DNA of 64,000 nucleotides from Mesorhizobium amorphae (GTDB taxonomy: Bacteria; Pseudomonadota; Alphaproteobacteria; Rhizobiales; Rhizobiaceae), in the NCBI RefSeq assembly GCF_014843845.1, contig NZ_JHQS01000007.1, positions 62,001 to 126,000 on the forward strand, read 5' to 3'. The position numbers and the translations under genes are program-made. The notes under the pieces were generated by a model that ran no database searches, had not been told where the DNA came from, and saw only the letters and a program-made list of their open reading frames with translations. Shown here piece after piece: positions 19,507-23,219 of this stretch. Position 1 is the stretch's first letter. Every line of letters begins with the position of its first letter.

Positions 19507-19555
19507 GTTTGGCACCAGGCAGCACAGGTCAACGCCGCGCGCCGGTGTCGCGGCC

Positions 19556-19641
19556 AAAAAAAGACCGCATCGTTTGCACGACACGGTCGAAGTCTAGGGA
19601 GGAAACGCCCAAGGAGGGCATGGACAGGAAAACCTGTCCGA
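19556..19641 (-). ncRNA. mmgR: MmgR-like sRNA (suhB-motif / alpha-r8 family)
   Basis: A predicted transcript of about 86 nt on the minus strand. It holds hairpin GGACAGG-TTTT-CCTGTCC (19622-19639), CU-rich unpaired-looking stretches (CCCTCCTTGGGC, TTTCCTCCC) that could pair with ribosome-binding sites, and a strong terminator hairpin GACCG..CGGTC (19563-19588) followed by seven T. A perfect TTGACA -35 precedes it. It lies between an N-formylglutamate amidohydrolase gene and an inositol-monophosphatase-type gene, the context I recall for the alphaproteobacterial suhB motif. MmgR of Sinorhizobium limits polyhydroxybutyrate accumulation. Ends are estimates. Confidence 0.75.
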
Positions 19642-22219: not shown

Positions 22220-22344
22220 TCGGCGTTTTCGTTTTTCGTGTCGTGCCCGAACCTAGCGAGGCGTGGCACGGTGATAGACGCCAACGTGGCAAAAGCAAAG
22301 GGCTTCCGGCTGGAAGGGGAAGGCAGCAACTTCCGGTAACGAAT

Positions 22345-22380
22345 GAGGCCGGAAGCAGCTTGCGGCGTGCTTCCGGCCTC
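22345..22380. other. Perfect 13-bp stem-loop in a divergent intergenic region
   Basis: GAGGCCGGAAGCA (22345-22357) and its exact complement (22368-22380) flank a 10-nt loop. It sits in the 469-bp gap between the hydrolase gene and the Hsp20 gene, 174 bp before the heat-shock promoter. There is no T-run on either strand, so it is not an obvious terminator. The rest of 22220-22550 shows no gene I can support. Confidence 0.6.
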
Positions 22381-22553
22381 TGTCGATCCGGGAGGAAGGG
22401 ACGTTACACCCGGTTCGGCCTCGTCGCGGCGCATTATCTGGTGCCGCTTGTTCTTGATGCTGGCTGCACGCTAGCGCTGCCTGCCTGAACGGGCGCCGAA
22501 GCAGCGGTTCATCTGCCGTTCATCGAAGCGCGAATTCGCCGTCCGGCAAAAAT

Positions 22554-22582
22554 CTTGAAATGCGCTTTTGCGCTCCCCAAAT
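22554..22582 (+). promoter_or_regulatory. Sigma-32 (RpoH)-like heat-shock promoter
   Basis: CTTGAAA (22554-22560), 14-nt spacer and CCCCAAAT (22575-22582) closely match the heat-shock promoter consensus (CTTGAAA / CCCCATnT). It lies about 100 bp upstream of the Hsp20 start. Confidence 0.75.
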
Positions 22583-22585
22583 GTT

Positions 22586-22688
22586 GGATGCGGTCGCCAA
22601 TGTCGGGGCCGCTGGCCCATCCGGAACGCCGCTCAAGGGTTTCGCACCGGCCAAACGCAAACCATGTTGCTCAACAGGAGAACACCTC
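22586..22688 (+). promoter_or_regulatory. ROSE-like RNA thermometer in the Hsp20 leader
   Basis: A leader of about 100 nt with stacked hairpins: GGATG/CATCC (22586-22590, 22618-22622) around GGGCC-GCT-GGCCC, and GGTTT/AAACC (22638-22642, 22659-22663). The last small hairpin pairs TTGCT (22667-22671) with the ribosome site AGGAG (22676-22680) across a CAAC loop, leaving one G opposite G. UUGCU pairing with the Shine-Dalgarno is the defining feature of rhizobial ROSE elements, which open at high temperature and let small heat-shock mRNAs be translated. Confidence 0.72.
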
Positions 22689-23156
22689 ATGCGTCACGTT
22701 GATTTTTCCCCGCTTTATCGCTCCACCGTCGGCTTCGATCGTCTCTTCACCATTTTGGATTCGCTTGCCCAGCCTGAGAGCGCGCAGACCTATCCGCCCT
22801 ACAACATCGAGCGCACCGGCGAGGACGCCTATCGCATCTCGATGGCGGTTGCCGGTTTCTCGGAAGACGAGATCTCGATCGAGGCCCACCGCAATGTGCT
22901 GACCGTGAAAGGTGAGCGCAAGGAAGAGGGCAATGGCGAAGGTTCCGAGCTGCTCTATCGCGGTATCGCTTCGAGGGCCTTCGAGCGCCGCTTCCAGCTT
23001 GCCGACCATGTCGATGTCGTCGGCGCCACGCTGAAGAACGGCCTGCTCTTCGTCGACCTCAAGCGCAACATCCCCGAGGAGCTGAAGCCGCGCAAGATCG
23101 CGATCACCGCGTCTTCGGCCAAGGCCAAGCAGATCGAGGCCAAGACCGCTGCGTAA
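22689..23156 (+). CDS. Small heat-shock protein, Hsp20/IbpA class A
   Basis: A 155-residue chaperone that binds unfolding proteins. The start MRHVDFSPLYRSTVGFDRLF is typical of rhizobial class A Hsp20s, and residues ~37-135 form the alpha-crystallin domain (YRISMAVAGFSEDEI, then LLFVDLKRNIPEE). The ATG at 22689 is 8 nt after AGGAG. An RpoH-like promoter and a ROSE-like leader precede it, and a strong terminator follows, so it is a single-gene unit under double heat control. Confidence 0.95.
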   Translation: MRHVDFSPLYRSTVGFDRLFTILDSLAQPESAQTYPPYNIERTGEDAYRISMAVAGFSEDEISIEAHRNVLTVKGERKEEGNGEGSELLYRGIASRAFERRFQLADHVDVVGATLKNGLLFVDLKRNIPEELKPRKIAITASSAKAKQIEAKTAA

Positions 23157-23191: not shown

Positions 23192-23219
23192 AAAGCGGCG
23201 CCGAAAGGCGCCGCTTTTT
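23192..23219 (+). terminator. Rho-independent terminator after Hsp20
   Basis: An 11-bp stem (AAAGCGGCGCC / GGCGCCGCTTT) with GAAA loop, ending in five T, 35 nt after the Hsp20 stop. Confidence 0.92.

Follow-up and report, generated by a model that had tools for sequence, protein, structure and literature searches.

How is the small heat-shock gene in this 64,000-nucleotide stretch of the Mesorhizobium amorphae genome (hereafter the window) controlled, and does the RNA ahead of its start codon take part in sensing temperature? A preliminary description proposed double heat control, in which a sigma-32 promoter and a ROSE-like RNA thermometer would act on the same Hsp20 gene. The promoter and the ROSE-like leader stand by conservation, anatomy and gene context, but the proposed pairing register at the Shine-Dalgarno sequence and a stabilising helix near the 5' end do not. 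We consider it very probable that the mRNA depends on RpoH and that its leader acts as a diverged RNA thermometer of the ROSE type.

The gene (22689-23156, plus strand) encodes an Hsp20/IbpA-like small heat-shock protein of 155 amino acids. It scores 168 bits with the IbpA model, below the model cut-off of 212, and the nearest named protein among the matches listed is from M. amorphae (99% identity). A hairpin followed by a T-run, read from the sequence at 23195-23219 (plus strand), resembles an intrinsic terminator and would leave Hsp20 as a single-gene unit. About 3 kb upstream of the gene, on the minus strand at 19549-19626, lies an mmgR/suhB-type small RNA (RF00519, 66.6 bits), which also precedes the Hsp20 gene in 10 of 13 scanned relatives. 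The stretch that separates the Hsp20 promoter from the neighbouring gene holds an inverted repeat at 22343-22381, with perfect 13-bp arms (GAGGCCGGAAGCA / TGCTTCCGGCCTC), for which Rfam gave sub-threshold matches only.

RpoH-dependent promoters follow the consensus CTTGAAA and then, at a fitting spacing, a CCCCATNT-like -10 box. The element CTTGAAA-N14-CCCCAAAT of the preliminary description was confirmed at 22554-22582 (plus strand), with the -35 box at 22554-22560 and the -10 box CCCCAAAT at 22575-22582. It is the sole match to CTTGAAA-N12-17-CCCCAWAT in the 64 kb (0.00 expected from shuffles), and it is conserved. Of the genus loci, which are the best 80 of 505 relatives, 78 had a strict RpoH-like pattern that no control stretch from these loci showed (0/480); outside the genus the pattern was present at 36 of 66 order-wide loci (controls 0/396). 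At 28 of the 30 order-wide loci missed by the strict pattern, CTTGA stands at the right place. CTTGA alone, starting 30-34 nt 5' of the leader, was found at 64 of these 66 loci versus 14 of 396 controls, a count for which the frame was moved by 30 nt at three loci whose model match was out of register. Across the genus loci (again the best 80 of 505 relatives) the spacer between the boxes varies and the boxes themselves are fixed; a GCGC-TTTT-GCGC inverted repeat in the spacer, considered as an operator, was dropped because the spacer is not conserved. The genome encodes one RpoH above the family cut-off and another candidate that, at 274 bits, falls short of it. In its motifs and their conservation the element corresponds to an RpoH (sigma-32) promoter, and we infer that RpoH uses it.

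The 5' leader of the Hsp20 mRNA would span 22588-22688 (plus strand), taking transcription to start about 6 nt past the -10 box. This leader of about 100 nt was found at all 80 loci from the protein search (the best 80 of 505 relatives). A covariance model built from it (R1) scores the window leader at 134 bits, as expected of a model built from that leader, and at E up to 0.01 found a match in 75 of the 397 genomes sampled in the order, including 9 from the genus. All 66 R1 matches outside the genus lie directly upstream of an Hsp20 gene that is 57-85% identical to the one in the window. Among 385 genomes of the class, R1 gave 11 further matches outside the order, 10 of which lie upstream of Hsp20. 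The eleventh, in another family of the class (L239), has no Hsp20 gene in the 3.1 kb examined and may be either a chance match or another target. Two small genomes of the same family (L155 and L170; 1.5 and 1.6 Mb) keep the leader at a leader G+C of 44% and 37%, and carry a promoter-like GTTGAAA in place of CTTGAAA.

Structure was evaluated by taking the minimum-energy fold and scoring it on an alignment of 78 rows (A1: the window plus 77 of the 80 genus loci, with L025, L030 and L036 omitted as near or exact duplicates). The resulting three-hairpin structure was paired in 98.3% of cells, with double changes at 12 of 33 pairs. None of 500 shuffles reached any of five measures, a count that should not be read as a probability because the shuffles do not keep the relatedness of the rows. 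When the partners were slid by one to three columns on the same alignment, pairing fell to 38-50%. Hairpin I (22590-22612, plus strand; GCGGUC-(G)-CC, loop, GG-GGCCGC, with G22596 bulged) was paired in 99.7% of cells and had double changes at 3 of 8 pairs. Hairpin II (22613-22653, plus strand) consists of an outer helix (22613-22617/22649-22653; 96.2% of cells paired, double changes at 3 of 5 pairs) and an inner helix with bulged G22628 (22622-22630/22637-22644; 98.2%, 6 of 8 pairs). Hairpins I and II thus bear the covariation within the genus, where the Shine-Dalgarno hairpin is invariant. The stabilising helix of the preliminary description, GGATG/CATCC, found no such backing: 65.8% of its cells were paired, a level reached by 181 of 500 shuffles, and the GGGCC/GGCCC that forms the inner part of that helix shares bases with the supported hairpin I.

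The third stem may be extended in this genus by an outer helix, ACGCA 22655-22659 with UGCGU 22690-22694 (22655-22694, plus strand), which covers two bases of the start codon. Folding predicted this helix in one fold and 3 bp of it in another. It was paired in 96.9% of cells in the genus alignment, where it is near-invariant with a largely coding right arm, and none of the 78 rows contributed covariation. At least 4 nt of it are kept at 31 of the 66 loci outside the genus versus 15.9 expected from a mononucleotide shuffle control, and the start-codon helix is thus not general outside the genus.

Since the Shine-Dalgarno hairpin is invariant within the genus, its possible registers are indistinguishable there and we examined it on wider sets. 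The first comprised the window, 24 of the 80 genus loci, 62 of the 66 order-wide loci and a canonical ROSE element, L003 (A4, with L127, L141, L151 and L166 omitted); the second comprised 148 leaders (the window, 80 genus loci, 66 order-wide loci and L003). The preliminary description correctly placed TTGCT (22667-22671) and the Shine-Dalgarno sequence AGGAG (22676-22680, plus strand; read from the sequence) upstream of the ATG at 22689, and UUGCU, like the promoter, is conserved. It also paired the two with a G opposite G, and here the data favour another arrangement, UGUU-(G22669)-CUC with GAG-AACA (22665-22684, plus strand), in which the anti-Shine-Dalgarno motif UUGCU carries the bulged G. 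At 37 °C this hairpin has a free energy of -3.5 kcal/mol versus +1.1 kcal/mol for the UUGCU/AGGAG register. Over 87 distinct rows, 97.4% of its cells were paired and 4 of its 7 pairs showed double changes, in 34 cells, versus 83.0% of cells and 0 double changes for UUGCU/AGGAG. None of 500 shuffles reached its pairing, double changes or covariation score, and 27 of 500 attained as many further pair types. The outermost pair of the hairpin is broken in 15 of the 87 rows and gapped in 23. When the four-pair UUGCU/AGGAG register was slid by one column, 99.7% of cells were paired, again with 0 double changes. By pairing alone the shifted register would be compatible with these rows, but compensation was seen only for the bulged-G hairpin.

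UYGCU is present in 146 of the 148 leaders and CUGCU in the remaining 2. With partners placed for best pairing in this set, each of the 32 C residues immediately 5' of the bulged G has G as its partner, and a U at that position is opposite A in 91 leaders and G in 25. G22669 itself is an invariant column in both alignments (A1 and A4), and it is bulged in the best-supported hairpin. In a register like that of the ROSE1 NMR structure, the base facing the conserved G is A in 34 of 88 rows and G in 54; in the window it is A22681, so that in this register the G-G mark would be absent there. A rival hairpin, UGUU-GCUC-AACA, was rejected as weak (-0.2 kcal/mol) and its second arm is not conserved. 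Energy and covariation together disfavour the UUGCU/AGGAG register, and we take the pairing over the Shine-Dalgarno sequence to be that of the bulged-G hairpin.

Kinship with canonical ROSE elements is remote, and a covariance search with ROSE models, as the preliminary description suggested, gave a split answer. The ROSE model of Rfam 15 (RF00435) did not match the window at its gathering score of 45 or even at E up to 10; with the latter limit it also missed all 13 diverged relatives searched, and at gathering it missed all 20 order-wide loci searched. In the other direction, R1 at E up to 0.01 matched 17 of the 40 canonical ROSE loci compared, always at the expected position; these 40 were drawn from 59 over-cut-off RF00435 matches listed, and at one of them, L199, located at a contig end, tblastn found no Hsp20. 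RF00435 at E up to 0.01 matched 55 of the 397 sampled genomes of the order (44 over its cut-off), and the two models share only one element (G144:C90), where the RF00435 score is below cut-off. The genome of the window has a canonical ROSE of its own (RF00435, 81.7 bits; L003 1281-1378 on contig C16), which precedes an ibpA-like gene and a second Hsp20 gene, and it therefore keeps both ROSE branches. R1 scores this canonical element at 24.8 bits when searched directly, little above the genome's best unexplained place. The other listed places in the genome scored at most 22.8 bits (E 0.075), with weak matches on contigs C4, C80 and C78, in a genome-wide listing that was not exhaustive, as its first look passed over the canonical ROSE.

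The two groups of leaders differ in a defined feature. By taking minimum-energy folds and scoring a bulged G at 2-4 pairs below the loop, we found one in hairpin I at 78 loci of the genus (from the best 80 of 505 relatives), 63 of 66 order-wide loci and 25 of 40 canonical ROSE loci. The corresponding numbers for hairpin II were 75 of 80 (of the same best 80 of 505), 54 of 66 and 1 of 40, and 14 of 1241 shuffled segments having a hairpin showed a bulged G. A tree of 115 proteins (the window, 66 order-wide, 6 genus, 40 ROSE-type and 2 other Hsp20 proteins) requires one change of leader type, 73 versus 40 rows, in a sample that consists of genes with either leader plus two outsiders, as loci were picked by leader type. 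The branch on which the leader type changes has support of 95/78, the second value just below the tool's mark of 80, and was recovered in 98% of the 200 bootstrap replicates. Very long branches lead to ROSE_L199, ROSE_L212 and both outsiders. The window leader has the features by which ROSE elements are recognised, namely a location in the 5' UTR of a small heat-shock gene, UYGCU imperfectly paired with the Shine-Dalgarno sequence, a bulged G, and three stems in about 100 nt. We read the window leader and canonical ROSE as one superfamily with two branches, and on these comparisons the former appears to be a ROSE relative whose own mark is the bulged G in hairpin II.

The conservation of hairpins I and II, with the same bulged-G arrangement, could also reflect another role, in which the leader would serve chiefly to bind Hsp20 and free chaperone would repress its own translation until released onto aggregates. 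The window Hsp20 has R96, R100 and R101 within SRAFERR, at a spacing that equals, in a by-eye alignment, what we take to be the arginine/lysine sites of E. coli IbpA. Self-repression of IbpA through its 5' UTR needs R93, together with R97 and K98 (PMC10474464). The account in that source, in the text accessible, demonstrates chaperone self-repression for gamma-proteobacteria only, and the arginines are not peculiar to the window gene, since the other IbpA-like protein of the genome has LRSFARR. As the main function of the leader we think this unlikely, though a real possibility, and such binding could act alongside a thermometer. A further variant is a separate class of small heat-shock leaders, in which three tandem hairpins with a bulged G in the same place would form a motif read by the Hsp20 oligomer, integrating temperature (by melting of the last hairpin) with aggregate load (by release of Hsp20 from all three); this we consider distinctly improbable.

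Thermodynamic prediction neither supports nor refutes a thermometer. The folding energy of the whole leader is unremarkable (z of -1.2 and -1.0), and the evidence for structure is comparative. In ViennaRNA calculations the opening of the Shine-Dalgarno sequence in the window leader stayed flat between 20 and 55 °C (0.39 to 0.43), deletion of the bulged G made no change, and 72 of 100 shuffled leaders conceal the Shine-Dalgarno sequence at least as well at 37 °C. Such near-constant accessibility might be expected of a constitutive structure that stabilises the mRNA or tunes translation, with heat control residing wholly in the promoter, and heat induction would be obtainable from an RpoH-type promoter alone. 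However, canonical ROSE gave just as flat a curve (0.40 to 0.44), which leaves flatness with little weight, and the UYGCU motif with its bulged G, a hairpin I of ROSE topology and the site upstream of Hsp20 fit a thermometer; we regard a purely constitutive role as very improbable. That the resemblance arose by chance, or reflects common ancestry without RNA function, would agree with the unremarkable folding energy and the lack of an Rfam match, but is already contradicted by compensatory changes that exceed all shuffles and slid registers in a leader found in 75 of 397 genomes, and is scarcely credible.

The diverged ROSE-type thermometer that we prefer would operate as follows. At growth temperature, the 5' end would form a pair of G+C-rich hairpins with one bulged G apiece, and the third stem would pair UGUU-G-CUC with GAG-AACA over the Shine-Dalgarno sequence. 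In this genus, ACGCA would also pair with the start codon and the second codon, and the bulged G would hold the Shine-Dalgarno helix weak. Upon heat shock, RpoH would lift transcription from the predicted start, and the Shine-Dalgarno helix, opening in the heat-shock range, would let translation climb too.

Dual control by RpoH and ROSE is already known and is not new here. It is established for Pseudomonas ibpA, where a sigma-32 promoter precedes a ROSE-like leader with U(U/C)GCU placed against the Shine-Dalgarno sequence, as in the window; those short thermometers have two hairpins in 61-62 nt, in contrast to three in about 100 nt here (PMC3669281). The same source defines ROSE by U(U/C)GCU imperfectly paired with the Shine-Dalgarno sequence in the 3' hairpin, and the number of stem-loops in ROSE elements is put at two to four, over a length of 60 to more than 100 nt (as told in PMC10474464). 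In M. loti MAFF303099, a ROSE downstream of the promoter is stated for all four class A small heat-shock genes, three of which are highly heat-induced, and the S. meliloti counterparts of one M. loti operon of this kind are cited as RpoH-dependent (PMC3989490). These M. loti genes are of the same genus and gene class as the window Hsp20, and one of the four may be its orthologue. ROSE control is also described for Agrobacterium hspAT1 and hspAT2, with a bulged G opposite the Shine-Dalgarno sequence, and in the ROSE1 NMR structure the conserved G forms a syn-anti pair with a Shine-Dalgarno G (as told in PMC9450479). More than 40 candidates were predicted in older work on ROSE (cited in PMC3669281), and members of the branch of the window may be among them. 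We found no description of a hairpin II with a bulged G in the open-access passages and listings consulted, which included passages of PMC7143759 and PMC4432818.

Canonical ROSE, as recognised by RF00435 and present on contig C16, likewise lies 5' of an IbpA-like Hsp20 gene and behind an RpoH-like promoter. Its hairpin I (CGGYC-(G)-CC, loop, GG-GRCCG) shares the topology of the window leader, bulged G included, and its last hairpin likewise has UYGCU, a bulged G and CUC/GAG over the Shine-Dalgarno sequence. The window leader differs in that its hairpin II has the bulged G and an outer 5-bp helix, and in that its Shine-Dalgarno helix is Watson-Crick throughout below the bulge. It is missed by the Rfam ROSE model and sits on a separate Hsp20 gene clade. 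A broad branch that seems to belong to the same thermometer family escapes the curated ROSE model, and two leader types, each with its own Hsp20 clade and distinguished by the bulged G of hairpin II, coexist in one genome.
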